Below the pieces are notes generated by a model, which made no database searches, had not been told where the DNA came from, and saw nothing but the letters and a program-made list of their open reading frames with translations. Both the position numbers and the translations under genes were made by a program. DNA of 64,000 nucleotides from a virus. This document shows, in pieces, positions 12,063 through 52,314 of this stretch. The DNA lies in IMG/VR virus record IMGVR_UViG_3300030101_003968, positions 1-64,000 of that record, one strand, 5' to 3'. Positions within the stretch are counted from its first letter, which is position 1. Each line of letters begins with the position of its first letter.

Positions 12063-12136
12063 GCGCCTGTAGCTCAGCTGGATAGAGCATCTGCCTTCTA
12101 AGCAGACGGTCACAGGTTCGAATCCTGTCAGGCGTA
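12063..12136 (+). tRNA. tRNA-Arg (anticodon TCT)
   Basis: Complete cloverleaf: acceptor GCGCCTG/CAGGCGT (one G-U), D arm GCTC-AGCTGGATA-GAGC, anticodon arm TCTGC-CTTCTAA-GCAGA, variable CGGTC, T arm ACAGG-TTCGAAT-CCTGT, discriminator A; CCA not encoded. It reads AGA, a codon that dominates Arg in the phage's structural genes, so the tRNA would supplement host supply during late expression. Confidence 0.97.
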
Positions 12137-12143
12137 CAATTAA

Positions 12144-29900: not shown

Positions 29901-30040
29901 ACGAGTCCATTCAACAGGTTGTTGCAAGGCCATCATTTAGAGACTCAAGTGAAGTTGGATCGCTAACTTCACGCCCTAAAAAGATTGTAAAAAAGTCTGC
30001 TAGTTCAAACAAGACGAAAAAAAGAGGCTATGGCAAGTAA
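26951..30040 (+). CDS. Tail nozzle/stabilization protein, N-terminal part, with Ig-like inserts, 1029 aa
   Basis: The first 150 residues follow the start of the podovirus/crAss-like stabilization (nozzle) protein: NIRPRI-type start, VNIVADGLETSEQNTVKKIPGT, then RNRVFYFTSEYTAG. From about residue 180 long Ig-like segments follow (PNFPNLVVNPLEEAPSTTGF, PGDTFNLPITITTEGG), resembling cell-surface sandwich domains. The rest is Ser/Gly/Asn-rich, ending in a basic tail (KKSASSNKTKKRGYGK). The rest of the nozzle core continues in the next gene, overlapping by 11 nt. Host-surface contact by the inserts is inferred. Confidence 0.55.
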   Translation: MITNLRPRILNKESSPSVIKGTDMLDAVNIVADGLETSEQNTVKKIPGTIDVFFNDSDDAFLNTVLGVSVNKTAVVLGHCVDKERNRVFYFTSEYTAGSDTQSNGKIYMMEQFAPDEIKIVILGLISDILPEDFVAANIIRVPVLEEEYNLDENFGGVQEDQDTIIEFDDSVDVTDIQGEITVISTPNFPNLVVNPLEEAPSTTGFLTIQNTGGAIAYQTLFEFGEGINAEDPQDHSRIEMSIGQEALSELAPGDTFNLPITITTEGGVEAGTYEFFVTVISQNYTQVIPVQFALNIEVKTLVDPKFSISIQTSGPSSADYTYGENVTPSISLGPIEENSGIDSEATITFVREVTPDDEVSLPLGISFEIDTAQEALELSIGESDIAGSEVIMGGFEATLTDENTVAQFKIKLRDNNGPFENVVYDRTIQFSTSANLIAYPGFNSDGFSYEDIDVQIAVSVLEEVIVLPADIGTTGFNNQQFGLLPHLTNEENESELGVDAETLDGSSVTVTVGTIYNNGDEDGHFFLNLRGSTQGYGLEQLASLNKVGLRYKIGNVNSGDWKQMFSMTSIFNAVSGLDDGFPPGSDISLFSETLAGGNSQQLHIRIENIDDTCRAGVLDTIGETYEGDVILFENSWIGALGVLEMLRVEVHQIPSPDTNLTDVGSETYNNSGSTNPSVKGFMDIETIISTAEPIIGPTIVESRGRQTTAQLDSTGGGPLGGGLTTYYPKQFASIFTDPNQQLLDSIQANDGSVYSGSTDDGDGVGFAVANTSVAASGAADPTITISVSVTFQEPNFLGPFGSGFENHDPNPFQGTFGAVGSLGPVLVYTEPYLIGSQELTDFDSKDLSSYPFSAYNSSLAYGNNGDGHAEFGSCRQFFTTIPSSSVVFFAVKPEFSSYITFLQTPSSEYSYAFEDDHYGSFCGVNVNVNGNSTTLGNNTNRVVFPLTNEQWDWVHSQPDFGGAPPTPSRFDVDPTPSPLPFNDESIQQVVARPSFRDSSEVGSLTSRPKKIVKKSASSNKTKKRGYGK

Positions 30041-33000
30041 TACAGATAGAGCCAAGTTTGTAAACACGAACCCAAAAGAAAACACAATACTTGCGTTTAC
30101 AAACGGAAGGGGAGAGCCTCGTGCCATAAATGTAGAAAGGTGCATAGATGAGCTCGGTCAAATCCCGTCCCTTAACGCGATATCTCTTGACGAAACGGAT
30201 CAAAACGATTTTAAATTTGCTTGCCCAAGAGTTCACTTGTTGCCAATTTCTTTTGAGTTTGATTTTGATCCAGATAAATCTTCTGGGAACTTTGAAAACA
30301 CAGATGGATTTCAGTTTTCTTATCAAGTTGTTTACAAAAACGGATCTACGAGTGCCATTGCCCCGTACTCCGACGTTGCATATCCGCCAGCAATAATTAA
30401 CCTTGGTCTCAAGACTTTGGCTGAGACTGAGGTAGAAAACAGGTGTGTGCTATTTATTCCCAAGCTGTCTGCAGAGGCCAAACTTATAAGGCTCATATCC
30501 AGAGAGGGGAATAACGACAATCCTAGGGTTATAGATCAATTTAGAGTAGACGTACAGTCTAATGACTTCATAATTACCGATGACGATTTTCTTGGTCAGT
30601 ACAGCTTTTACAATGACAAAATCGGTGCGCTTCTCTCTGAGATTGACGCTACAAAAACGTTTGATAACGTTCCTAGAAACGCTAAGGCTCAAACCGTCGC
30701 GGACAACAGGGTTATGTATGGAAACTATACCGAGGGATACGCCAACATAACCACTGACGTAAACTTAAGTGTAGAATTTAAACAAGCACCGCCTCCTGGG
30801 TTTTCATTTGAGCTAAAGGCAGTTCCTTACGTATTCAGAAAAAAAACAGATAAGGCTTCTGGAGAAGCTGGTTCGGCAGATCTTGGAAGACAGAGATTTA
30901 AAACAAACTCTGGTTTTGTACTGGATACAAGTGGGTTTCCCGAAAGCGTACCCGTGGGAGTTTACACAGTTTCTATAACTATTGCCCCTAAAAACAATTA
31001 TCACATTTTTCTTGGAACGGGTGAATCCCCTAACTCTAGAGAAAATCCGATTGTTGGAGCTGGTCCTACCGCCTTAAGTGATTTTATTTTTAATCAATCT
31101 ACAAGTGCTCTGGCGGGTTCGTCTGCTGCTCCCTCTAAGGTGATTAGAGGTAGAGAAATGGGTGCGGCATCTCAGTCCGACACAGCTGGACTTCCTGTTG
31201 ACGGAGCTCTAAGAGCATCCTATTTTAACGGAGGTTACAACACAGCCTCAAGCGTGACTTGGGATTCAAGCAATGGAGACCTGCACCTTACGGATATAGG
31301 AAGGTCGTTTAGCTCTCCGCTCGTATTTAAGGGTGAACCAGTTACTTTTTCTACAACAATTCAAGTAAACTCATCCACTGAAAGGGATGTTTTTTCTAAG
31401 GCTCTCATTCATGGGCTTTGCGGATTGCACCCTAACTCAAGCCCTATAGATGTATTCGGTTCTCAAGTAGCTCCCACATCTAGTCCTGCAAATTACTTTA
31501 AGGAGGTTGCCTATGATTTGGGCCTTAATGATGACTCAACTTTTTCAGCAGAGGGAAGCTTCTTATCTGACCTTGTTTGTTCCGTTTCAAGCGGATATAA
31601 CAACTCAGACGTATCTGGCGACATGTGCTCAAGAGAGCCAGATGGGTTTTTTGTAATCAATAAGGCCACGATGAGGTTTTGTGGTGAGCCAGCAAGGGGT
31701 TATGCTGGACAGATAGATGATCTTCTCTATGAATATGATCAAGACAAAAGCGGATATGGAATGTTTATGTCTTTTGCTCATGCGAAGGATGTAAATGTAA
31801 AAACTGTTGTGCCTCTTCCAGAGGGTAAGTTTGGGTCAGCATCTAGTCCAGGTGCAGCTGCTCAGTCTTTCGAACTGTTTACTAACAATATAAATGGATC
31901 TAATGACGATGTAGTAAGAGCAAGAAGATTTTTTGCTATGGGAACTGGGGACTGGGACTACAGGGTTGATTCTAACGGAAACAATCAAATAATGTGGCCG
32001 TCTTGCTATAGGCAGTGGCAAACCCCAGACGGCGCCCTAAATGGACCGTCTAGGATTCAAAACACAAACCCAGAAGATCTGCAAACCTATTTAGAGTCAG
32101 CTACAATAGATCAAGGGACTGTTGCTCTTTCTTCAAGTCAACCCGATCCAATGCCCGCTCCTGTATTACCAACAAGGCAATACGATGACGGTAAGATTTT
32201 TGAATCAAATGATTCCTTTAGAAATACGTTGTATCATCCAGCGCCTATAAAAAAATGGATTATTGCTGGCGACGAAAACAGCGAAGTATTACCTAGTGAC
32301 AAATCAGACTCATACTGGAACACTATACACGGTGGCGCGGGCTTTACAGTTAACATCGACGTGCCAAACGACTCGTTTGACAATGCCTTTCAAGATGCGG
32401 GTCAATTCTTCGTCGCGGGAAATCCATCAACAATGCTGGGAGACATAAGTAAGCATTACTGTGGGTACCTTAAAAACTACAATAATGCTGGTTATTTTCA
32501 GTTCGGCAGAGATATTGAGTACACCGCCCCCCCTGACACCGTAAACGTTTCTAATTACTTAGATAGGGGAACTCTTTCGTTGGTTGATGGAGAGATGGGG
32601 CCTGGAGGTATGAACGGGTTAGCTGCATCTCAGTTTGGAAACAGATCTGATAACTCTTCATTTGGGCTTCCTTTTGTCATGGGAACCCACGACATTAACG
32701 GTGATACATCATCAAACGTGATGGGGTCCATGGCAAACATACGTGGAACTGTTACAAATTTTGGGCTTTTAGGATATGTAGATAATTGCCCAGGATACCT
32801 TGTATCTGAAATTGTAGCTAGAACTCCAGAAACAGTAAACTCCAATTATAATGGAGCTTTTGTTTTAGGAAACAGCAGTGGAAGTTCTCAACTTGCTCAA
32901 AGCTTTGCTGTTGTAGTACCACAATATGCAGACGTTGGTTTTGCCTTAAATGATGTATTGCTGGGTGAGGCTCAGCCGCTTGGTGTTGTCTTTAGGTCTC

Positions 33001-36000
33001 CGCTGACAAGTGGATACTTTTCATCTTTTTACTCCGACCCAGGGGCGCTTGTAAGTTGTATTGACACTAGAGATACTGCTGATATGGCGGGCACCATAGC
33101 TCAGGGTAATTACTTGAGCACAATTCAACCCGTTCAGACAAGGCAGCCTCCAGCGGGTTCAACTGGATCAGCAATAGTGGTTTCTGGGGCATCTATAAAC
33201 ACCTCTTCAGAAGAGCTTGGATACAACTCGTTTAAGACAAAAGCAAATCACGAATTTGGTATAGTTTACTATGACGAAAGGGGGAGACATGGGGCTGTTC
33301 AGCCCGTAGGCTCTGTATATGTGCCTGGATATGATACAGAAGACCGAGGCAGTTCCTTAAAGGGAGCAGCAAAAGTCAAAATGGAAATCAATCACGCTCC
33401 TCCCTCTTGGGCGACAGAATATAGGGTGGTTTACTCTGGAAACACTTCGGTTAGTGAATTTATTCAACATACCGTCGCTGACGCTTTTGTATCCTCAAAA
33501 GCTCCAGGCAGAATATACGTTTCTCTAAATCACCTTCAGTCTAACAAGATTTCATACGCCGAGTCATACGGAGCAGTCAGCCTAGATGATGGCACCAAGT
33601 CGCTATACCGATTCAATCAGGGTGACAGACTTAGGATTATAAACTATTCCAATGTGTCTGCGGAGCTAGAATATGCTCCAAAAGATTACGACTTTAGAAT
33701 TGTTGATTTAGAGATAGTTGGTCCAGACATGGACAATCACCCTTTTCCAAACGAGTCTGATCAGGCAAGATTTAATGGTGAGTTTTTGGTCTTGGAGGAC
33801 AACAAAGAGGCTAGTGGGTTTAGGGTTGAAGACATTTTGGCTGACACCTCTGGTAACGTAACTAGTTTTTGGGGAAACAGATGCCTTGTAGAGATATACA
33901 GACCATCCAAGGGGCTTGGAGATGAGTCTAGGCCTTATTTCGAGCTTAATTATGGAGGAAAAATTTTAAGCGGTCCCACACATCAGTTCAACACTATCTT
34001 GATGACTAAGGGTGATGTTTTTTACAGAAGCGTACCCATGAACGCTCAAACTATAACTTCTGACGCATCTACAGAGCAGACTATTGGCGAGTACACTAGT
34101 CTTATTCAAGGAAGCACAGACAATGAAACATCCGTGCCCAATCCTGTTTCGTATTACGTTGAGTCTGAAACAGTTACAGATTTATATAAGTCTGATGCAA
34201 AGAATTATGGGAGAGTGCATTTTGTAGACCGATTTGCCGATGAGGTAGAAAGGCCTTCTAGCATATCGTTTTCTGAAAAAACATTTCAGGGCTCTTACGA
34301 TCTTAGATATTTCTCTTTTCCAAAAATAGGAAACTTCAAAGACCTTCCTAGGTACAGTGGAGGCATTGATGTGATGGACTTTCAGGGAACTAACATAATG
34401 AGTTTTAATGACTCAAAAGTATACTACATTCCAGTCTCTAGAGACGTCCTCACAACAGGCAATACGGATGCGATTGTCGCAAGTACAAAGGTGCTTGGGT
34501 CTGAAATAGCAATACCGATTGACGGGGGCTCATCAAAAAGACCTGAGTCGGTTATCTCTATTAACAACGACTTTTTCTTTTTTGATGAAAGGAATGAAAG
34601 AATAGTCATGATTAAAGGGGGTAGAACTCCAGTAATTGTTACAGACGCAAATGTTGATGCTTACTTCAAGTCTGAAGTTCAAAAATGGAAGCAAAGTGGT
34701 GCGTTCAAAGCACCCTCTGGGTACGACCCGATGAGGTCAGAGTACTTAATATCTCTCTCTTCGCTGGAAGATGGCTACATATATCACGATCACGTCTCAG
34801 CAAGAGATCGAATGCTTACAATGGGGTTTGACTTAAAGACGAATAAGTTCTGGAAGTCAAGGTATTCTTTTGCGCCTCACTTTTACTCTACCCTTAACGG
34901 AAAGCTAATTTCTTATCACTCAGAAAAAACTCTAACTCACCCAAACACTGTTGGAGATGAAATAGAGTCTCCATTTGTTCTTCCGCAGATTCACAATGAC
35001 ACTTCAAAGAGGAATAAGATCTACGGAAAAAAAGTTAGATCCAGCCTATGTGTTTCTGCTAATGCCAACAACTCAAAAACAAAGGAATTTAACGTTGTTG
35101 TTTTGGATTCTGACAACAGGTGGGAGGCTAACCTGTACACACCCACTGGGGCCTCTGCAATACCGTTTGGCAGGTTTAAGGGTTACAACGATAAGTACTA
35201 CGGAAAAATTGTTGGAGACACCACCGTTGCGGCAGAACAAAGAAAGTCCCAGATAACAAAGAGAACAATTCAGACTATGCCCTATGCTTTTGACGAAAGG
35301 CTTATTCCGTCTACGGGGCAACTTCTTCAGTCTCAATTTTTGGGTCCAAGAGGGTTTACTTTTGTTGACGAAAATGGAGAGATTTATGGAGTTAATTCAA
35401 CTGGAATTAAGTACATGGAGTTCCAAGTTGTTATGTCTAAGTCAAGCTCTGCGTTTACGGCTCCACTGGCCATTGGGAAAAACTCTATTCTTTATGAATC
35501 TTCACCTGGAGGATCTCAAATGGTTCCTTTGGGATCAGGACCTAAAAACACTCACTCTTTTAATAGAAAGGCGTTTATAGCTGCAGACACTGAAGACACG
35601 AACAGAACAAGAAAACTCGTAATAAGGGCTCCTTGGAATCAAGTTGAAAACTACTGCTTGCAAAACGGTCACGAAGACGTAATTGAAAGAGTTACTACTG
35701 ATGAGTTTACTTCAAATCCGAGCGTAGTCTTCGGGTTCTTTACTTCTGTCAATAATGACGAAACAGGTTACAAGATATTTGATATAATTTTTGCCCCGTA
35801 CTACTCCATGTTTTTTGGAAAATCTGTGCAACAAGATGGGTCACTAAACAACCTGATAAGCCTTTTTGACGGTGAAGGCATTTTCAGTGGAGGCGATCAA
35901 GCTGAATATGTGTGGGACTTGAACGAAGACGGCCTCGTTAATGTGAGCGACCTCTTGATATTCTTGACAGGGTTTGGAGAACCATTTGGAACAGAAGATT

Positions 36001-36296
36001 TGTTGGGCTTACTTGCGGAATTTGGTTCAGGCGTGGAAGATGAAAGCACAGTTGATTTTGATACTATAGGCTCTTTTACTGCCGCACAATTTTTAAATCT
36101 TTATAATGGTGAGCGAAAAGAAATTCACTCTGTGTATAGCAATCAGCTAAACGCTCCTGAGCTTACGGGCAGATACATGAAAATAGACCTTGTTTCAGAC
36201 GACGCACAAGATGATGCTCAGTTGTATGAGATTATGGTTGATCACGACAACAGAGTAAAGTCTCTTTCAAGAGGAACTAAATCGAAAAAGAAGTAA
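30030..36296 (+). CDS. Tail nozzle/stabilization protein, main part, with dockerin-like insert, 2088 aa
   Basis: Starts with segments that are internal in one-piece nozzle proteins: TNGRGEPRAINVERC, FQFSYQVVYKNGSTSAIAPY, LIRLISREGNNDNPRVIDQF, FDNVPRNAKAQTV, RVMYGNYTEGYANI. Ring-forming beta-propeller with large Gly/Asn/Ser-rich insertions (residues about 280-1080), then core again (RFADEVERPSSISFSEKT). Near the C-terminus, residues about 1958-2000 carry a dockerin-type repeat (DLNEDGLVNVSDLLIFLTGF, then EDLLGLLAEFG) with the calcium-loop pattern D-x-N-x-D-G. Very large for the family. ATG 30030 lies inside the previous gene's end. Confidence 0.6.
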   Translation: MASNTDRAKFVNTNPKENTILAFTNGRGEPRAINVERCIDELGQIPSLNAISLDETDQNDFKFACPRVHLLPISFEFDFDPDKSSGNFENTDGFQFSYQVVYKNGSTSAIAPYSDVAYPPAIINLGLKTLAETEVENRCVLFIPKLSAEAKLIRLISREGNNDNPRVIDQFRVDVQSNDFIITDDDFLGQYSFYNDKIGALLSEIDATKTFDNVPRNAKAQTVADNRVMYGNYTEGYANITTDVNLSVEFKQAPPPGFSFELKAVPYVFRKKTDKASGEAGSADLGRQRFKTNSGFVLDTSGFPESVPVGVYTVSITIAPKNNYHIFLGTGESPNSRENPIVGAGPTALSDFIFNQSTSALAGSSAAPSKVIRGREMGAASQSDTAGLPVDGALRASYFNGGYNTASSVTWDSSNGDLHLTDIGRSFSSPLVFKGEPVTFSTTIQVNSSTERDVFSKALIHGLCGLHPNSSPIDVFGSQVAPTSSPANYFKEVAYDLGLNDDSTFSAEGSFLSDLVCSVSSGYNNSDVSGDMCSREPDGFFVINKATMRFCGEPARGYAGQIDDLLYEYDQDKSGYGMFMSFAHAKDVNVKTVVPLPEGKFGSASSPGAAAQSFELFTNNINGSNDDVVRARRFFAMGTGDWDYRVDSNGNNQIMWPSCYRQWQTPDGALNGPSRIQNTNPEDLQTYLESATIDQGTVALSSSQPDPMPAPVLPTRQYDDGKIFESNDSFRNTLYHPAPIKKWIIAGDENSEVLPSDKSDSYWNTIHGGAGFTVNIDVPNDSFDNAFQDAGQFFVAGNPSTMLGDISKHYCGYLKNYNNAGYFQFGRDIEYTAPPDTVNVSNYLDRGTLSLVDGEMGPGGMNGLAASQFGNRSDNSSFGLPFVMGTHDINGDTSSNVMGSMANIRGTVTNFGLLGYVDNCPGYLVSEIVARTPETVNSNYNGAFVLGNSSGSSQLAQSFAVVVPQYADVGFALNDVLLGEAQPLGVVFRSPLTSGYFSSFYSDPGALVSCIDTRDTADMAGTIAQGNYLSTIQPVQTRQPPAGSTGSAIVVSGASINTSSEELGYNSFKTKANHEFGIVYYDERGRHGAVQPVGSVYVPGYDTEDRGSSLKGAAKVKMEINHAPPSWATEYRVVYSGNTSVSEFIQHTVADAFVSSKAPGRIYVSLNHLQSNKISYAESYGAVSLDDGTKSLYRFNQGDRLRIINYSNVSAELEYAPKDYDFRIVDLEIVGPDMDNHPFPNESDQARFNGEFLVLEDNKEASGFRVEDILADTSGNVTSFWGNRCLVEIYRPSKGLGDESRPYFELNYGGKILSGPTHQFNTILMTKGDVFYRSVPMNAQTITSDASTEQTIGEYTSLIQGSTDNETSVPNPVSYYVESETVTDLYKSDAKNYGRVHFVDRFADEVERPSSISFSEKTFQGSYDLRYFSFPKIGNFKDLPRYSGGIDVMDFQGTNIMSFNDSKVYYIPVSRDVLTTGNTDAIVASTKVLGSEIAIPIDGGSSKRPESVISINNDFFFFDERNERIVMIKGGRTPVIVTDANVDAYFKSEVQKWKQSGAFKAPSGYDPMRSEYLISLSSLEDGYIYHDHVSARDRMLTMGFDLKTNKFWKSRYSFAPHFYSTLNGKLISYHSEKTLTHPNTVGDEIESPFVLPQIHNDTSKRNKIYGKKVRSSLCVSANANNSKTKEFNVVVLDSDNRWEANLYTPTGASAIPFGRFKGYNDKYYGKIVGDTTVAAEQRKSQITKRTIQTMPYAFDERLIPSTGQLLQSQFLGPRGFTFVDENGEIYGVNSTGIKYMEFQVVMSKSSSAFTAPLAIGKNSILYESSPGGSQMVPLGSGPKNTHSFNRKAFIAADTEDTNRTRKLVIRAPWNQVENYCLQNGHEDVIERVTTDEFTSNPSVVFGFFTSVNNDETGYKIFDIIFAPYYSMFFGKSVQQDGSLNNLISLFDGEGIFSGGDQAEYVWDLNEDGLVNVSDLLIFLTGFGEPFGTEDLLGLLAEFGSGVEDESTVDFDTIGSFTAAQFLNLYNGERKEIHSVYSNQLNAPELTGRYMKIDLVSDDAQDDAQLYEIMVDHDNRVKSLSRGTKSKKK

Positions 36297-45600: not shown

Positions 45601-48019
45601 ATGGGCAGCTCAGACGGTAAGAGAGCTAGAGACTCCTGAGATGAAGCGCGTAGCTGGACTTGTTTACTCGATTATCGACAACACGAGAAAGACCATGGTC
45701 AAGTTTGGTCTGGAAACTCAGGAAACAATCGACGCATGGCAGGATTTGTTCGGGAACTACGTTCCACTCGCAGGGCTTGCCACTGATGAAATGGATGAAA
45801 ACAACATCGCCTACCCAACAGGCGGTGCTGGTATGGGGGTTTATGGCACTACCCAGAAGAAAATCAAGGGACGTAAGAGCGAGGTAAAGGCAAACATCGT
45901 GGCTCAGGTCGTGATGCAAAACGCCATGGTCATTCAGACCGCAAGGAAGAACGAGGCCATGATGCACCTGTACCGACTCATCAAGGAGAACCCCAATGCA
46001 AACGTCTGGGGCATCAATACGTCTACTTTCCCTCTCACTAGGTTGAATGAACAGGGGCAACAGGAAGGCATGTCTGTTGCAGAAATGAAACAGAACCCTC
46101 ACACCGTTCCAATCAGGGTAAATGGCAAGACAGAGTTCTTGTACTTCAAGGACAAAAACTATGCTAACACCCTTAACGGCATGACCGTTGAGAGGGCATC
46201 TATCTTCACGAGAGGCCTCAACTCCATGACTGGCTTCATGCGAAACATGCTTACGGTGTATGACCCTAACTTCATGATCAGCAACTACGCTCGCGACATT
46301 CAGGCAGCCGCCTACAACGCGATGGCAGAGGCTGAGATGGATGGTGGATACATACAAGGTGTTAGCCACGCTAAGTTCGCAAAGGACCTTATGTCCAACA
46401 TGTATCTTTCTACTAGTCAGTTGTTTAAGAACGCCGCCTTTGGCATCGAAATGGACGCTGAAATCCAGGGGTATATGGCGGAGTGGTCAGCAGATGGAGG
46501 TAAGACTGGATGGGGGTATACCAAGTCCCTTAACGATATCACTGCTGAGCTTGAGCAAGCTTCTAAGTTTTCGGGAGATTCCGCGTCAAGGGAGTTTGAC
46601 ATCATCATGGGTACGCCTAGGAGGTTTGCCAACTACATCGAAGGCATTAACGAGGCATTCGAGGCCTCTACTAGACTTGCATCTTACATCGCTGCAAGGC
46701 AGAACGGAATCAGTAGAGAAAGAGCTGCACAGCTTTCAAAGAATGTCACCGTAAACTTCAATAGAAGCGGAGAGTGGCAGTTCTTGAACAGCGTGTATCT
46801 ATTCTTCAATGCCGCCATGCAGGGTAACTACAGGTTCCTAAGATCCATGACGTACCTGAAGGACGTGCGGAAAGAAAATGGTGAGCTTGAGTCTTGGCAC
46901 AAAAGAGTTTCTGTACCGCAGAAAATCGCGTTTGCCATCAGCTCATTCAGCGGCCTCGTGGCTACTCTCAACATTGCAATGAGTGGCACCGATCCCGACG
47001 ACGGAGAGTTGTGGTACAACAAGATTCCAGACTACCACAAGGAAAGAAACCTGATCTTCATGCACAGGGACGGGAAGAACTACAGCATGATCCCCCTACC
47101 ATACGGGTACAACATTTTCAACAACCTTGGAACCGTGCTTGCTGAAACATCTACAGGAAATAGAGAGTTTTGGGATGGTGCTATGTTCCTCGGAATGTCT
47201 GGCTTTAGTGCTTTCTCTCCGATTGGATTCGGTCAGAGCAAGAACTTTGCAACATACCTTGGCAAGGCTGCAGCCCCCACGCTCGTCAAGCCATTGGTGG
47301 AGATTGCGGCAAACGAAACCTACTTCGGATCTCAAGTTTATCAGGAGCGCCTTCCGTTCTCAACAACTCCCTATTCCCAGCTGGCTTTCCAATCGCCAGA
47401 GCAAGTTCAAGAGTTCTTCCAGTGGATGAACGAAGCTACAGGCGGCAGCAAGTACAAGTCGGGATCACTTGATATGAATCCAGATCAGCTCTGGTACCTA
47501 TACGAGTACTACATCGGCAGCGCGGGAAGGTTTGTGGGCAACACAGGAGAGCTTGCAACGAACATGTACGAGATGTCAAAAAACTCCTACAGACTCGCTG
47601 CTGAGCAAGGAATGAGCTACGATGCGTTTAAGAAAATGACAGCTGGATTCCAGGGCAAAAACAGAATTAGAATGCGCCCCAGTCAAATACCGATTATTAG
47701 AAAGGTATACGGGGAGCCATCTAGATACTTTGATAGCGACAAGTACAAGGAAAACACCTTTGAAATACAACAGCTCAAAAAAGAACTTGATAAGGAGCCA
47801 ATCTACACTCCAGGAAGATACCGAGGTGTTCAGGAACTTCACAAGTTATTTAAGGAGACCAACAAGACCCTTAAGACAATTAGAGCTCAAAGAAGGCTGG
47901 CTAAGGACATAAAGGACAGAACGGAAAAAATTAACAGGCTTTACGAGCTTGATGAGAGACAAAGAAGAGTAATGACCATTTACAACAGAAAACATGAAGA
48001 ACTCAGAGGACAAGATTAA
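39614..48019 (+). CDS. Giant polyvalent internal virion protein, 2801 aa
   Basis: Domains in order: N-terminal 0-400 helical; two hydrophobic stretches at about 495-530 and 590-680; coiled coil at about 690-860; a metallopeptidase-like site HEVGH at 1014-1018 (AQHEVGHVVLR); a Pro/Glu/Ala-rich linker at about 1170-1240; unassigned domains at 1250-1900; then a large-polyvalent-protein (LPD38-type) region with YAKHAPERNAYVASKNP (about 1970) and IPLPYGYNIFNNLG (about 2492); a basic coiled-coil end. Such proteins are injected with the DNA and carry effector or peptidase activities. No single-subunit RNA polymerase catalytic set was identified. One of the longest phage genes; preceded by its own promoter. 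Confidence 0.75.
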   Translation: MPLRSGFSSPQSEVQSIIEDYRNQGLPDEQLEKRLSEEFAPEMWEPILHPKEEPKDDLESRLVSQIGEKPEQPSFPQDIYDEFQYDFRNPLIKPLPPKGGFVTTDGTYNKSLEAYNSQAEKRNFRAKKQSAVFELYNNQVDEYNYNAQAWNDAAEDILEDENREFYESTIKIDKSLAAITQLPERVNPYSWKSALGEQRNTGKFSPLDFGTHIFAQKTDTDIHNEMLRDEGYLSAMKNPMDESFNLGSSDYPVLVSGSPDDVMSQVKMIYDERNDKNFASDPAFVAALKEKMKRKDSYRSAYMKEWFSKYAKENVFDLKNMTPEEMAQAEQDIFDDTGLYINLDGNNTVGAAKEGDFWTNMSAATMRLRATGNNVMFVANAMGKALDFVMSEDTKSYERYDIRLDELRDRKNELERAAEEISQGMTRYYMTRTEAMLAGDDLSLDIDDVEQASIITVLKGFVGLEDSFSKMERLEALQSLPQSQTGNLIGMLFALATRGKGSKAAKGVTGLFNFFAKTSLGASVPMATMVGADKFAEIYDDPFFSTFTDSEGLEVSPIAAQRMLEEAQLFGNSNATFESLGLTRNRNDAAILGYTTVHAGGEAAGELAGGLLFKGFGKYATGTPLDRAAKKRIGQYLVGMFSAVGISMPEEYLEEAITEAIQYSAELGFEDREFNMDEFVSRVRKAGLSGFTMAPLMGTATSVVGTAMQERQIQQMSPEEFNLYQLRFAYNSEYDRLDKTARDIIEMEQTRDASNDPSFVQHMNEEIAQKRKTLKKNQKARMDKAFALLEKDAPLANKIMLSGQKISGLASMVKEETNEDIKKIYEEELEKAIGERAQLDDAVAEALREQRTIVVKDRDGNDVKTSFTERSATTEEKREMEGLSSAQRPNAEDAAAQDELDEEFDLDYDAGMEDDQIVMLSGMDGVTMEQGSIDESKMQKGVMDFLRMVAPDLASEDLTIITYGSQKAYEADPDIARAMSRDGASPRAYAARNEEGKITRIIVDPRSTIGDAQHEVGHVVLRTVYDNPVQRTALVEKILDMANIKGNETFRAWVNSTIDLYNSNREQLGKDDVAQEELIQNFFQAYVSGEWNVFNDAGKQIEVKKKVRDRIAEGFWDFLAIRNPSVRSLNIKDTDGLIAVAKKFQRFVSDQPNFSPTTEKVASPMERMGKMVAAPEQERPEPKKEKLDPASLFKEKPAEPAEEAPASEEAKPQDDLTETAVPTPVMGPRQDTESEADYRARLQREADEMLKGTEGIETSAEDALSQETEGLRSKQRGKDFVAGKTIKAVYLRNYDARVFELKAKDYGHYRNWVAKITGNGSQPFDRISYQKEDGSFADLRAPKPVYNRDGTLRQMRPVDIRTFKMRFIESRNAILQARTDAKVSNTKRLTRLRDLARENNINLDEYFDYNYGNYTLSNLEYAEVQILSRISEEPGTTHDIGIIGPNLDATGRISSRDPLPKDLEIYNKGRELGYRSKRRKVEGVGTHTTSFSERSAIEQGVLTRVKNIDEFRSELTRLTGDGSIFAMIAKYAPTSYGTATFEVGGKKVKVPVKSGVYTPVVDYFDFMKKNGRAPSPSEISAITNTNSGKQSEVFDAIKERAMRFADNDKQSVIFIKNLGAENPAGDPGIFEAAFKIIDAAIESSSNPGVAVEMVVDSINKIMAKTYKSKLSIGGGEKIAIDKENGRTLFQRLSDKEIKGSGLYDQDGSLRLNRAEPELAYKNFKKFFVDQKSNKIGFEIRKPLLLKLLNSKHLGSTESKEYLTLPSSKEFLDLVSSEEHLNTSSATGDIIGAVIVDNAAAKLKTEDPSTGKPYLYGVTGFKGLVMFDEFATEAKVQEMMIARNPERYTGGIGAQASGLAGLMSKRRAGRIYHHGAGQWEKSTSNMFGNALSAIALKFQDKYFDVIMLQSDVENYKKQRVEAGQDFDLALDLMYGKTRDNLESLETTLDMIKDLMAQSEITSDQLSDYLYAKHAPERNAYVASKNPDNKAGSGQSDVWAAQTVRELETPEMKRVAGLVYSIIDNTRKTMVKFGLETQETIDAWQDLFGNYVPLAGLATDEMDENNIAYPTGGAGMGVYGTTQKKIKGRKSEVKANIVAQVVMQNAMVIQTARKNEAMMHLYRLIKENPNANVWGINTSTFPLTRLNEQGQQEGMSVAEMKQNPHTVPIRVNGKTEFLYFKDKNYANTLNGMTVERASIFTRGLNSMTGFMRNMLTVYDPNFMISNYARDIQAAAYNAMAEAEMDGGYIQGVSHAKFAKDLMSNMYLSTSQLFKNAAFGIEMDAEIQGYMAEWSADGGKTGWGYTKSLNDITAELEQASKFSGDSASREFDIIMGTPRRFANYIEGINEAFEASTRLASYIAARQNGISRERAAQLSKNVTVNFNRSGEWQFLNSVYLFFNAAMQGNYRFLRSMTYLKDVRKENGELESWHKRVSVPQKIAFAISSFSGLVATLNIAMSGTDPDDGELWYNKIPDYHKERNLIFMHRDGKNYSMIPLPYGYNIFNNLGTVLAETSTGNREFWDGAMFLGMSGFSAFSPIGFGQSKNFATYLGKAAAPTLVKPLVEIAANETYFGSQVYQERLPFSTTPYSQLAFQSPEQVQEFFQWMNEATGGSKYKSGSLDMNPDQLWYLYEYYIGSAGRFVGNTGELATNMYEMSKNSYRLAAEQGMSYDAFKKMTAGFQGKNRIRMRPSQIPIIRKVYGEPSRYFDSDKYKENTFEIQQLKKELDKEPIYTPGRYRGVQELHKLFKETNKTLKTIRAQRRLAKDIKDRTEKINRLYELDERQRRVMTIYNRKHEELRGQD

Positions 48020-48434
48020 AAACACCAAGCTAGGGGCTTGGCTAAAGGGCAAAGCTCCCAAAGTGCTTGACGTGGTAGGCGACCTGCTCCCAGATCAAGG
48101 CGCACTCGGCGTAGTAAAAAACCTGCTGGACAAGGAGCCAGGTGTAGACCCTGCAGAGGCTCAGGCCATGGTGGATGCAGAGGTAAAGTTTCAGGAGAAC
48201 GTAACGGAGCGATGGAAGGCTGACATGGGTAGTGACGTAAAGCTCGCTAAGCTGATCAGACCAGTAACTTTGATTGCTCTTATGACCATGTTTATGGTCA
48301 CCATGGTTGCAGACAGCATGGATGACTGGCCATTTAACGTAAAAGATAGTTACGTATCTTTACTTGAGATACTTATGCTCACCGCCTTTGGTGCGTATTT
48401 CGCAGGAAGAACCATTGAAAAAGCCAAAAAATAA
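47994..48434 (+). CDS. Holin candidate (3TM/GTA-holin-like), 146 aa
   Basis: Hydrophilic first 80 residues, then a short amphipathic segment and two membrane helices (residues about 88-106 and 121-138), ending AFGAYFAGRTIEKAKK. Arrangement and the RPVTLIALMTMF / AYFAGRTIEK pattern match small holins of the GTA/3TM type. Would form the inner-membrane hole for the M15 endolysin. ATG 47994 lies 26 nt inside the giant gene. Confidence 0.65.
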   Translation: MKNSEDKIKNTKLGAWLKGKAPKVLDVVGDLLPDQGALGVVKNLLDKEPGVDPAEAQAMVDAEVKFQENVTERWKADMGSDVKLAKLIRPVTLIALMTMFMVTMVADSMDDWPFNVKDSYVSLLEILMLTAFGAYFAGRTIEKAKK

Positions 48435-48435
48435 C

Positions 48436-48567
48436 ATGGAAGAGGACTTCGACGACATCAGCTTTTTGGATCAAGACAAGCTCAAGAAGCAAGAAAAGAA
48501 GATTGAAGACGGTGATATCACCTGCAACATCGACAACCCAGAGGATTGCGAGTCATGCAGCGGATAA
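48436..48567 (+). CDS. Small acidic protein, 43 aa
   Basis: MEEDFDDISFLDQDKLKKQE... with three Cys near the end (CNIDNPEDCESC). Starts one base after the holin stop and its last codons overlap the T9SS-cargo start. Short, acidic, no membrane segment. Its tight placement in the lysis/envelope cassette suggests a regulator or chaperone-like partner; unknown. Confidence 0.6.
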   Translation: MEEDFDDISFLDQDKLKKQEKKIEDGDITCNIDNPEDCESCSG

Positions 48568-50618
48568 TATCGTTGTTGTTTTTTTTGCCCCTGTTGGCTG
48601 CAGCACAGCCCAGCTGGGTAAGAGTTGAGTTTCAGAGTGACGCCTACGGAGAGGAAAGCAGCTGGAACATATATCCAGTTGGCTCCGATGAGTCTGTGGC
48701 CTCTGGGGGCCCATACGCTGATTCAACGTACTTCCAACAAACAATCCCGCTTCCATCTGGTGAGTACAACATGGTTGTTGACGACGCCTTTGGGGACGGG
48801 ATTTGTTGTGGGTTTGGAGAAGGATGGTTCAAGCTGAACAATGACTGCGAGCTTGATATCGCTGTTTTTGACTTTGACACAGCTCAGATAACAGTTCCGT
48901 TTACCCTTACCCCGTGTGAGCTGCCAATGCCTGGTTGTATGGACGAGTCGTCCAACAACTACAACCCATGGGCCACCGTAGACAACGGAACATGTAACGT
49001 CAGCGAGTGTCCTGAGGGTCAGGCATTTGTGTCTATGGAGCTTACACTAGACAACTGGCCTAACGAAACTGGATTTACATTGGTGGACCTTGCTGTCGGT
49101 CAGTTCTACGAGCAGGTGCTTCCAGGGGGTTTTAACTTTGGAGATCAATTAGCCACCTACACTTACGACTTCTGCGTTGCACTTGGCTTCGAGCTTATTC
49201 TGACAGACACATACGGAGACGGTCTCAATGGTTCTGCAAGCGGAGGTCAAGATGGAGGAGTGGTCATCACTGCATGCGACGAAGAGGTTGTCTGGGAGCT
49301 GGAAGATCTATCCTACTCAGACAACGACGGAAACGTTCACTACTCAGGTGCCGTGTTTGTAGAGCCGTGCGCCATCGAAGAGCCCGTAGTGGGCTGCATG
49401 GACGACGATTACGTTGACTACAACCCAGAAGCTACAGAAGCAGGGGACTGCCTCACCCTACACAACTGGGGGTGCATGGACCCAGGATCATTTAATTACG
49501 ACTCAACCGCCACAATTTCAGACCTCAACAGCCCGTGCGTCACGACCATAAGAATCGGTGATGCAGCAGGAGATGGATGGGGCAATTCACACATAGGTGT
49601 AAAGCAGGGGGACCTGCAGTGGATCTTTACCATGGGGCCTGGAGAGTTTTCTCAGTCCTGGGACCTGATCCTTGACTCAGACGAAAAGGTAGACGTGTAC
49701 TACTTTGAGGTTGGAGGACCACAGCAACCGCCTCAAGAGACTGAGTTTCAAACACTTCACAACTCCATCCTTGTTACAAACGAGCTTGGAGACACGCTGA
49801 TGGTGGAGGGTCTTAACCCGTTCTTTGACAATGGTCAGGGGGCGCTTCAGCCTTTCAAGAACCCAGAGTGGAACGTATACAGCTTTATGCCCTACTGCGG
49901 TACAAGCTGCATTCCGTTTATGTACGGATGCACTGACGACACCGCACAGAACTACGATGACGAAGCTAATACAGAGGATGGGAGCTGTTACTACAATGCT
50001 GGATGCACGCAGGCTGGATACGTCGAGTACTACAATCAGGGATACGAAGCGGACTATGACGACGGCAGCTGCGAGACGCTCGCTGTATTTGGGTGCATGG
50101 ACTCCGAAGCCCTTAACTACGATTCAGAAGCAAACGTAGATACGGGAGACTGCATTGAAGTTGTACTTGACTGCATGGACCCTAACGCATTTAATTACAA
50201 TGAGTTAGCTAACGTTTCTAATGAAGAAGCATGCCTGTATGATGCGGGCTGCATTACAGGTCCAGGACAACCATATTGGGCCAACGACTACTGCTACTCG
50301 TGGGTGATCGAGGTTGACCCATACTGCTGCGAAACAGCGTGGGATGCGGTGTGTGCAGAGATGTACAACTACTGTGGCGCTGGAGTGACGTCAGTGGAAA
50401 TGGCTGTAAGGTCATTGCTTCAATTTTTTCCAAATCCAACATCAGGGTTGGTAAACATTCAGGCACCCGTGGGCACTCTAATAACCTTGTTTGACGCAAG
50501 GGGTAGGGTTGTTGAAACAACCACAGGCAACACAGTTGAGCTGCCATCTCCAGGACCGTATGTAATCATGGCCAACTACAAGGGTAGAATCAAGAGAGAA
50601 ACAATCGTAAGACAATGA
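48555..50618 (+). CDS. Secreted T9SS cargo protein with GCMD-type repeats, 687 aa
   Basis: Signal peptide MQRIISLLFFLPLLAAA cut before Q18, typical of Bacteroidetes. Six units of the GCMDxxAxNYxxxAxxxxGxC type occur at about residues 125, 278, 305, 457, 512 and 538; two beta domains lie at 17-120 and 140-270; then a VDPYCCETAWDAVC motif (about 593-606); the C-terminal 65 residues (QFFPNPTSGLVNIQAP ... LPSPGPYVIMANYKG) match the type A T9SS sorting domain, which directs export across the outer membrane and surface attachment or release. Such proteins are normal in Flavobacteriales but not expected in a phage. ATG 48555 was chosen over TTG 48546. Co-transcribed with the holin and an outer-membrane-type gene. 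Confidence 0.85.
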   Translation: MQRIISLLFFLPLLAAAQPSWVRVEFQSDAYGEESSWNIYPVGSDESVASGGPYADSTYFQQTIPLPSGEYNMVVDDAFGDGICCGFGEGWFKLNNDCELDIAVFDFDTAQITVPFTLTPCELPMPGCMDESSNNYNPWATVDNGTCNVSECPEGQAFVSMELTLDNWPNETGFTLVDLAVGQFYEQVLPGGFNFGDQLATYTYDFCVALGFELILTDTYGDGLNGSASGGQDGGVVITACDEEVVWELEDLSYSDNDGNVHYSGAVFVEPCAIEEPVVGCMDDDYVDYNPEATEAGDCLTLHNWGCMDPGSFNYDSTATISDLNSPCVTTIRIGDAAGDGWGNSHIGVKQGDLQWIFTMGPGEFSQSWDLILDSDEKVDVYYFEVGGPQQPPQETEFQTLHNSILVTNELGDTLMVEGLNPFFDNGQGALQPFKNPEWNVYSFMPYCGTSCIPFMYGCTDDTAQNYDDEANTEDGSCYYNAGCTQAGYVEYYNQGYEADYDDGSCETLAVFGCMDSEALNYDSEANVDTGDCIEVVLDCMDPNAFNYNELANVSNEEACLYDAGCITGPGQPYWANDYCYSWVIEVDPYCCETAWDAVCAEMYNYCGAGVTSVEMAVRSLLQFFPNPTSGLVNIQAPVGTLITLFDARGRVVETTTGNTVELPSPGPYVIMANYKGRIKRETIVRQ

Positions 50619-51661
50619 AGAAACTTGTAGCCATCGCCTTTATGCTTTTGCCCTTGCTCGCGCTTGGGCAAAGTGACTTTTACAAGAATGTGTTGAGAAG
50701 AGCTACGTTCTACGCAGCCGTGAACGGAGGCAACTCCGTATCAGATCAGGATGTGTTTTCTGTGGCGACAGGACCGCTTACTACAGACATTGTTGAGACG
50801 CCGTTTGACTATTCTCTGACTATTGGAGTTAGAAAGATAGCAAGGTTTGGATATGAGAACAGAGCCAACATCTTTTACGACGGAACAGAAAAGACATACG
50901 GTGACGCAGCAACGGTAGGTAAGTACGATGGCTTTGAGTTCTTGGCCGAGGCTGACTGGAGAAGGCAGCAGGGCAAGAACTTTCTCGATCAAGACTACTT
51001 TGCTAGGTACGTAGCTGACAGCTGGGTTGTGAAGGCAGAATACCTGCAAGACGGCTTTGCTGACGTTAGATACTTTGAGGCCTCAGAGCGGGGAAGATTG
51101 AAGATCGGTAAGAAGCTTTCTCTGAACGCAGGTGTTGTGCAGAGAATATCTGAGCCCTACGGGTACGACCCGCTTCAGCAATGGCTTCTGGACAACAATC
51201 AGATACACTACACCGCTTTGGCTTTGGAGCAGGGGTATAGCGTGGATGTAAACACAGGAGAGTTCTTCTCTCCAGACGGCACCATGGTTGCAAACGACCA
51301 AGCGGTATGGGAGCAAGTGGTCATCCCACAAGTTCTAGATGAGTATGTATCTAAGAAAAGATCTGAGCTTGAAAGCCAGTGGCTGTACTCAGCGGTTATT
51401 GGATTTGACTTCTACCACTACGAAAAAAACTTTTGGTTGCACTCCTGGGGCAATGTAATGCCCTATCACCTTGACACAGGCGACGAGTACTCGTATCACA
51501 ACTTCGTGAACAGCAGCCAGTGGGTTGACCTGGGCTTTGGCCTGGTGTTTGGAACCAAGCTTACAAAGAGCCTCGGCGTGTTTGCTGAGGGCAAATACAA
51601 CAGATACTGGAACAGAGAGTGGCACGATTTCTCTGTAGGACTCAACTACATACTACTGTAA
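50615..51661 (+). CDS. Exported outer-membrane-type beta-barrel protein (probable), 348 aa
   Basis: Signal peptide MKKLVAIAFMLLPLLALG before Q19. The mature part is rich in Tyr/Phe/Trp/Gly with alternating strands (VKAEYLQDGFADVRYF, WVDLGFGLVFGTKL, HDFSVGLNYILL), as in outer-membrane barrels. ATGA overlap with the T9SS cargo gene implies coordinated synthesis, so it could be a partner at the cell surface. Function (pore, receptor block, superinfection exclusion) unknown. Confidence 0.65.
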   Translation: MKKLVAIAFMLLPLLALGQSDFYKNVLRRATFYAAVNGGNSVSDQDVFSVATGPLTTDIVETPFDYSLTIGVRKIARFGYENRANIFYDGTEKTYGDAATVGKYDGFEFLAEADWRRQQGKNFLDQDYFARYVADSWVVKAEYLQDGFADVRYFEASERGRLKIGKKLSLNAGVVQRISEPYGYDPLQQWLLDNNQIHYTALALEQGYSVDVNTGEFFSPDGTMVANDQAVWEQVVIPQVLDEYVSKKRSELESQWLYSAVIGFDFYHYEKNFWLHSWGNVMPYHLDTGDEYSYHNFVNSSQWVDLGFGLVFGTKLTKSLGVFAEGKYNRYWNREWHDFSVGLNYILL

Positions 51662-51945
51662 TGGCACAACAAATTGGAGAAGATACTAAGGTAACGCTGG
51701 ATCTCAAGACGCTTGGGATGGTGGCAGCAGGGATAGGCACAGTTGTGGCTATGTGGTTTGCGTTGCAAGCGGACATCGCAGAAGCAAAAGAATTGCCGCT
51801 TCCTGCTGAACCAGAGATTACGCGCATGGAGTTCGACATGAAAGACCAGCTAGTTCGTCAAACGATTATGACTACTCAAGAAGATGTAACTGAAATCAAG
51901 CAAGATATCAAGCGCATTGAAGAGAAAATAGATCAACTAAAATGA
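51661..51945 (+). CDS. Small TM/coiled-coil protein, i-spanin-like, 94 aa
   Basis: A TM helix at about residues 18-36 (MVAAGIGTVVAMWFALQAD), then a Pro-rich hinge (LPLPAEPEI) and a C-terminal coiled coil (TEIKQDIKRIEEKIDQL), the layout of an inner-membrane spanin. The lipoprotein at 52748 could be the outer partner, but it is on the opposite strand. Stop/start TAATG overlap with the previous gene. Confidence 0.5.
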   Translation: MAQQIGEDTKVTLDLKTLGMVAAGIGTVVAMWFALQADIAEAKELPLPAEPEITRMEFDMKDQLVRQTIMTTQEDVTEIKQDIKRIEEKIDQLK

Positions 51946-51948
51946 CAC

Positions 51949-52314
51949 ATGAAACTCATATCAACCCTATATGTCTGCTGTGCATTGTTACTGGCGGCAG
52001 CTTTTGTAACGCCTGCAGAGGATAAAGAACTGTGCGGATCAGGAATCTGCGTGGTAGAGTTCAACGCAAGTTTTAACTCACAAAACAGTGTCCCATGGAT
52101 CGAGAAACTTGACGACTGCGAAACTGCCCGTGTGGACATCGCTACTGCTCCAGAGCTTCAGAAGAAGCACAAGATTGTTGTCGTCCCGACCATTGTTGTT
52201 TTCAAAGAGGGAGAGGAGCAGGAGAGGTTTCAAGCGAACATCATGATGACGATGGATGCGACCATTGAAGAAGTTCAAGAGGCCGTAGACGACATCATGC
52301 TAAACGACTTTTAA
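51949..52314 (+). CDS. Secreted thioredoxin-fold protein without CxxC, 121 aa
   Basis: Signal peptide MKLISTLYVCCALLLAAAF. The core follows thioredoxin: VVEFNASFNSQNSVPW where the WCGPC site should be (no active-site cysteines), and a cis-Pro loop VVVPTIVVFKEGE (P80). Retained fold with lost redox site suggests a binding or scaffold role in the periplasm. The two remaining Cys at 29 and 34 precede the fold. Ends convergently with the minus-strand gene at 52311 (4-nt overlap). Confidence 0.65.
   Translation: MKLISTLYVCCALLLAAAFVTPAEDKELCGSGICVVEFNASFNSQNSVPWIEKLDDCETARVDIATAPELQKKHKIVVVPTIVVFKEGEEQERFQANIMMTMDATIEEVQEAVDDIMLNDF

Follow-up and report, generated by a model that had tools for sequence, protein, structure and literature searches.

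Introduction

Why would a phage carry a gene whose product is addressed to the surface of its host cell by the secretion machinery of that host? The question is raised by a 687-codon gene in a 64-kb stretch of viral DNA, which was analysed as a whole (the window, from an IMG/VR virus record of 64730 bases). On this gene, the original prediction recognized both labels for export by the type IX secretion system (T9SS), a main surface-export route of Bacteroidota. The labels proved to be there, but the single-gene view was incomplete, as it missed a conserved gene module and the exchange of a large part of the protein between phages. Phage-encoded T9SS cargo itself has been known since the description of Cryophage in 2020; what is new here is the conserved module with its exchangeable passenger.

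Domain architecture of the cargo protein

The reading frame is uninterrupted, as predicted, and can be divided into the following parts.

48555..50618, + strand: cargo protein of 687 aa, with a signal peptide, three beta-rich stretches with xGDG motifs, seven repeat units, a Cys domain and a sorting domain
48555..48605, + strand: Sec signal peptide, residues 1-17, with cleavage before Gln18 (from the sequence, the conservation of Gln18 and the Q-rule)
48609..50234, + strand: passenger, residues 19-560, which moves between phages as a single unit
50235..50384, + strand: Cys domain, residues 561-610 (YWANDYCYSW..VDPYCCETAWDAVC..YC), which tracks the partner genes and not the passenger
50412..50615, + strand: T9SS type A sorting domain (CTD), residues 620-687 (TIGR04183, CTD matches in the PDB, Foldseek)

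Six units of the form GCMD...NY...GxC had been expected. The repeats are present, but there are seven of them (GCxD...NY...C), four beginning with GCMD and one each with GCTD, GCTQ and DCMD. The expected motif VDPYCCETAWDAVC is also found and is almost invariant among the relatives, and the protein ends in FFPNPTSGLVNIQ...RQ. A Pfam search found no protease domain, and no catalytic domain was detected. The cargo was not found to share domains with other proteins of the window. When the model of the whole protein (pTM 0.30) was used for a fold search, only generic Ig/FnIII-type matches were obtained apart from the CTD, and thus no ligand could be derived from the fold.

Two conserved export labels

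The Bacteroidetes-type signal peptide, predicted to be cut before Gln18, takes the form of MQRIISLLFFLPLLAAA followed by Q18, its hydrophobic leader being judged by eye. Of 101 distinct relatives, 99 retain Gln18, in line with the Bacteroidetes Q-rule, according to which cleavage by signal peptidase I exposes a Gln (PMC5837995).

The second label, the C-terminal T9SS sorting domain, for which a profile search had been proposed as the check, is borderline in the 687-aa copy and certain across the family. A six-frame search matched TIGR04183 to the C-terminus (50427-50612) with 24.9 bits, above the cut-off of 23 bits, while whole-protein scans gave 20.3 bits for TIGR04183 and 18.4 bits for PF18962 (cut-off 27 bits), both under their thresholds. 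PF18962 matched 44 of the 48 related phage records tested, exceeding the cut-off in 36 and reaching a maximum of 56 bits. The profile of the cargo family also matched solved T9SS CTDs in the PDB, such as 8glk (NucA), 8glj and that of gingipain RgpB. Because the relatives match both PF18962 and the solved CTDs, the doubt over the borderline copy in the window is removed.

The AlphaFold model of the CTD has an Ig-like beta-sandwich fold and resembles the translocon-bound CTD of NucA (8glk_D; Foldseek TM 0.73, rmsd 2.4) as well as that of RgpB (TM 0.62). P626, P628 and G650 are kept in all 101 distinct cargo proteins, and G650 aligns with the glycine of the loop between strands 3 and 4 of T9SS CTDs. 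Replacing this loop glycine by arginine stopped the secretion of RgpB, indicating that the residue matters for CTD function (PMC11285876). Like RgpB and NucA, the cargo thus combines a signal peptide with a C-terminal Ig-like CTD bearing the PNP motif and the loop glycine; unlike them, it is encoded by a phage, has no detected catalytic domain and is linked to genes for a barrel and a thioredoxin-like protein. From the two conserved labels, the cargo very probably leaves the infected cell via the host T9SS.

The cargo gene belongs to a four-gene module

The cargo gene was predicted to be coupled to phage genes on both sides. This holds for the downstream side, where the next gene overlaps by 4 bases, but not for the upstream side, where a gap of 120 bases separates it from the holin gene. 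Its neighbors are as follows.

47994..48434, + strand: holin directly upstream of the cargo gene (phrog_3427, 2.1e-22), late gene context
50615..51661, + strand: exported outer-membrane beta-barrel-like protein of 348 aa with a signal peptide, overlapping the cargo gene by 4 bases (ATGA)
51661..51945, + strand: small protein of 94 aa with an N-terminal transmembrane segment and a C-terminal coiled-coil-like region, its ATG overlapping the barrel stop codon by one base
51949..52314, + strand: exported thioredoxin-fold (Trx-like) protein of 121 aa with NxxN in place of CxxC (Pfam Thioredoxin 7.6e-5, just under the cut-off)

The barrel protein, with a mean column identity of 72% in its family alignment, was modeled with a pLDDT of 66, and its best fold matches were the porin and autotransporter barrels NanC, NalP, EstA and FapF. 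The BFVD entry A0A516LKJ4 matches the same fold (E 1e-21, 21% identity). Assignment of the barrel to PorP/SprF or PorV was rejected, as there was no match in Pfam or NCBIfam and no sequence match in the PDB, only generic barrel folds. Among cultured phages, the barrel and the small protein had no match at E 0.01, and a second search with the barrel, at E 10, returned chance hits only. The small protein, with a mean identity of 85%, matched no spanin family, and its PHROG matches were all weak and either of unknown function or annotated as 'lipoprotein'. For the Trx-like protein, the thioredoxin fold is supported by a sequence profile that matches 52 thioredoxin-type chains in the PDB; N43 and N46 are invariant in the family alignment, and the CxxC active site is absent.

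Among the loci collected first, 43 contigs showed the order cargo-barrel-small-Trx and 9 the order barrel-small-Trx-cargo, with neighboring genes mostly overlapping by 4 bases or separated by gaps of a few bases. Scanning viral contigs with the barrel alone yielded at least 599 stretches, of which the best 80, including contigs of 122 and 156 kb, were examined: all 80 also carry the cargo, 76 of them in the order cargo-barrel-small-Trx. Purifying selection acts on each of the four genes, with dN/dS values of 0.05-0.07 for the cargo, 0.02-0.03 for the barrel, at most 0.05 for the small protein and 0.06-0.24 for the Trx-like protein, to be read with the caveat that dS is saturated in distant pairs. 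Co-occurrence and co-variation make it somewhat more probable than even that the cargo cooperates with the barrel, small and Trx-like proteins.

The principal alternative is that the four genes form a module for envelope disruption during lysis, in which the partners would bridge the envelope in the manner of spanins and the cargo would weaken or tag the outer surface for the burst. The holin directly upstream would fit this role, and an M15 peptidase adjoins the module in several contigs. Moreover, on a related 56-kb phage contig (G416 C16; L243 7677-10001), an M15-like peptidase gene is coupled to the barrel-small-Trx trio where neither cargo nor CTD is present, which indicates that the partners can act without the cargo and may serve lysis. 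This trio may have existed before it became linked to a T9SS cargo. In another contig (L081), an Rz-like spanin and an amidase endolysin flank the module; this contig, however, already has its own spanin beside the module, and the 94-aa protein resembles none of the spanin families. Some copies of the module have terminase, portal and head genes as their neighbors instead of lysis genes, and a lysis function would leave the independent exchange of the passenger, described below, unexplained. We therefore regard the lysis module as unlikely, although it is the main competitor of an exported surface protein.

Further T9SS-type genes were observed near the module. In five loci (L010, L012, L013, L016 and L056), the cargo gene is directly followed, with a 4-base overlap, by the gene for another, shorter T9SS type A protein, which is weakly CARDB-like in the two loci that were scanned. 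In L073 (10077-12769, - strand), and also in L005, L076 and L079, a pappalysin-type M43 metallopeptidase (PF05572, 70 bits) lies next to the module and overlaps by 4 bases a gene for a 311-aa exported protein with a CHU_C type IX signal domain (51 bits), a pair that can be read as a putative further T9SS-type cargo set. CHU_C was found in 7 of 13 phage records tested, four of the 13 having been chosen because they carry this gene pair. Some phages encode two or three T9SS-tagged proteins.

The module resides in phages of probable flavobacterial hosts

The window derives from a tailed phage, as it encodes a terminase (phrog_6681), a portal, virion proteins, a tail-fibre-like protein and the holin. 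A tRNA-Arg (tct) gene is located at 12063-12137, just upstream of the terminase gene. A virion protein of 2088 aa, encoded at 30030-36296, weakly matches the crAss muzzle C-terminal domain and, judged by eye, carries a dockerin-like repeat (DLNEDGLVNVSDLLIFLTGFG) close to the C-terminal end. Several flavobacterial proteins that have domains in common with the cargo terminate in comparable tails.

A scan of viral contigs identified 94 other viral stretches encoding relatives of the cargo, with identities of 38-94% among the matches listed, and the full-length relatives have both the leader and the C-terminal PNP-type domain. The unannotated record of the single-cell Marine virus AG-345-P14 (MH319765.1; L161) encodes a segment that shares 55% identity with the GCTD...NY repeat region. 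When 396 genomes were drawn from the order of one Flavobacteriales metagenome-assembled genome (MAG) bearing the module, the barrel was detected in two, and both copies are located on phage contigs. One of them, L081, encodes a DnaB-like helicase, a UvsX-like recombinase and a ribonucleotide reductase in addition to the Rz-like spanin and the amidase endolysin; the other, G416 C16, has relatives of the terminase, portal and capsid proteins of the window. The four-gene module belongs to phages.

These data also bear on whether the cargo might be a host surface gene, either recently acquired with no phage function or joined to the phage by misassembly. Marine Flavobacteriales do have surface proteins with domains of the cargo, and some of these proteins are trypsin-like or subtilisin-family proteases. 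The misjoined host contig, named at the outset as a finding that would overturn the prediction, is excluded by the 94 viral stretches with their varied phage backgrounds and by the conservation of the module. A gene lacking a phage function is likewise at odds with a dN/dS near 0.05, the ATGA coupling to the barrel gene and the detection of the barrel in only 2 of the 396 genomes of the order, both times on a phage contig. Both versions are refuted by the data and retain a negligible probability.

The relatives of the window terminase are mostly from Flavobacterium and Cellulophaga phages, and module phages have been binned in Flavobacteriales MAGs, from which we infer Flavobacteria as the hosts. 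The T9SS CTD profile gave 42 and 49 matches in the two Flavobacteriales genomes that have module phages in their bins; one of the matches in G001 is the phage cargo. A T9SS is therefore to be expected in such hosts.

The passenger is exchanged between phages on a fixed chassis

Comparison of the module across phages revealed that residues 19-560 are swapped between phages, whereas the signal peptide, the Cys domain and the CTD stay with the partner genes. Across 91 phages, identity in residues 19-300 co-varies with that in residues 301-560 (rho 0.75), while residues 301-560 barely co-vary with the Cys domain (0.17), the CTD (0.09) or the barrel (0.07). By contrast, rho was 0.59 between the Cys domain and the barrel, 0.63 between the CTD and the barrel and 0.49 between the Cys domain and the CTD (Mantel p 0.001).

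Individual loci illustrate the exchange. The signal peptide, CTD and barrel of L046 are 91, 90 and 89% identical to those of L031, but the two parts of its passenger are 97 and 92% identical to those of L037, and a sliding comparison placed the break near residue 600-640 in L046 numbering, around the Cys domain and the CTD. The gene order in L046 is barrel-small-Trx-cargo, which places the passenger between the Trx gene and the CTD. Physical linkage by itself therefore offers no ready explanation for the CTD keeping to the type of the barrel. L006 and L173 share only 40-42% in the passenger, with 100% in the CTD and 93% in the barrel, and L020 and L205 show the same pattern. Chimeric assemblies are an unlikely source of the mosaic, as the same break is found in independent contigs (L037 and L039; L046; L006/L173; L020/L205).

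The chassis also co-varies with the holin, helicase and nuclease genes (rho about 0.34-0.68), more so than the passenger does (0.14-0.22). The terminase and portal correlate weakly with chassis and passenger alike, and the statement that the chassis follows the phage is accordingly one about the holin, helicase and nuclease genes.

A passenger that is traded in this manner suggests the recognition of a variable partner, although its exchange may also reflect host switching or simply recombination hot spots. A block on superinfection, aggregation or disguise of the cells and jamming of the T9SS had been put forward in the original prediction as possible roles. The mosaic pattern bears on two further explanations. 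The cargo could occupy or divert the host T9SS, such that fewer adhesins, for example SprB-type gliding proteins serving as phage receptors, are displayed and superinfection is blocked. This would agree with the phage resistance of T9SS and gliding mutants of Flavobacterium (PMC9233685) and with the presence of several T9SS-tagged proteins in some phages. A mere competitor, however, would need only the CTD, and the passenger is strongly conserved and exchanged as a unit; recognition or masking fits better than jamming for this reason, and we consider diversion of the T9SS improbable. Alternatively, the cargo could be a virion component, a decoration or adhesin that becomes part of the particle on the cell surface or as the cell lyses. 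It is encoded among late genes, and its mosaic exchange may be likened to that of tail-fibre adhesins, but a signal peptide and a T9SS CTD would steer the protein away from assembly in the cytoplasm, and PHROGs contain no such virion family. We hold this to be very unlikely.

Discussion

Our preferred explanation, which we consider probable on balance, is a T9SS-exported phage surface protein with an exchangeable recognition part. In an infected flavobacterial cell, the cysteine-rich cargo would cross the inner membrane by the Sec pathway, be cut before Gln18 and then pass the outer membrane through the host T9SS by means of its C-terminal sorting domain. The same operon would supply three further proteins, namely a barrel in the outer membrane, a coiled-coil protein in the inner membrane and, in the periplasm, a redox-dead protein with a thioredoxin fold. 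These partners might help to fold, hold or anchor the cargo in the envelope. The exposed residues 19-560 would serve as the recognition part traded among phages, while the labels and partner genes remain with the phage lineage.

Late in infection, the cargo might then coat the dying cell and its debris, masking receptors against rival phages and the phage's own progeny. Such receptor masking is favored by the location among late genes and by the phage resistance of T9SS and gliding mutants; it is speculative, and we put it forward only tentatively. Phage T5 offers a functional analogy in Llp, a small lipoprotein exported to the envelope that acts on FhuA, blocks receptors and protects the progeny. 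No homology is claimed, and Llp does not involve a T9SS. It is also conceivable, though rather less than probable, that the module as a whole is a dedicated device for surface display, in which a fixed chassis of signal peptide, Cys domain, CTD, barrel, coiled coil and redox-dead Trx chaperone would use the host T9SS to present an adhesin-like, traded passenger and thereby control phage adsorption.

How does this module relate to systems already described? Cryophage encodes T9SS type A cargos that vary among its variants, for which secretion by the host was proposed and superinfection exclusion was considered possible (Bellas et al. 2020, PMC7468147). The window likewise has a T9SS-tagged gene inside a phage genome, and in both cases genes of Bacteroidetes phages bear type A sorting domains and are variable between phages. 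However, the Cryophage cargos are an endoglucanase, a GH39 protein and a PA14-domain protein of one phage type (PMC7468147), whereas the module cargo is one non-enzymatic-looking family with three conserved partner genes, found in many marine phages, in which the exchange is localized to the passenger. T9SS sorting domains have also been noted near BACON genes in crAss-like phages (PMC6949934); there, the passengers are BACON domains, and the sections of that article considered here do not mention a module of barrel, coiled-coil and Trx-like proteins. Phages of Porphyromonas gingivalis encode proteins with Q-rule leaders, of unknown function, which were suggested to modify the outer membrane of the host (PMC10367356). 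They share the Q-rule signal peptide with the cargo, but type IX secretion is unmentioned in that report. A description of the four-gene module was not found in the open-licence papers searched.

Earlier links between phages and the T9SS were brief remarks on single phage types; there is now a conserved module that can be cloned and tested in F. johnsoniae. If the explanation given here is true, phages of a very common marine family would rebuild the surface of the infected cell by using the secretion system of their host.
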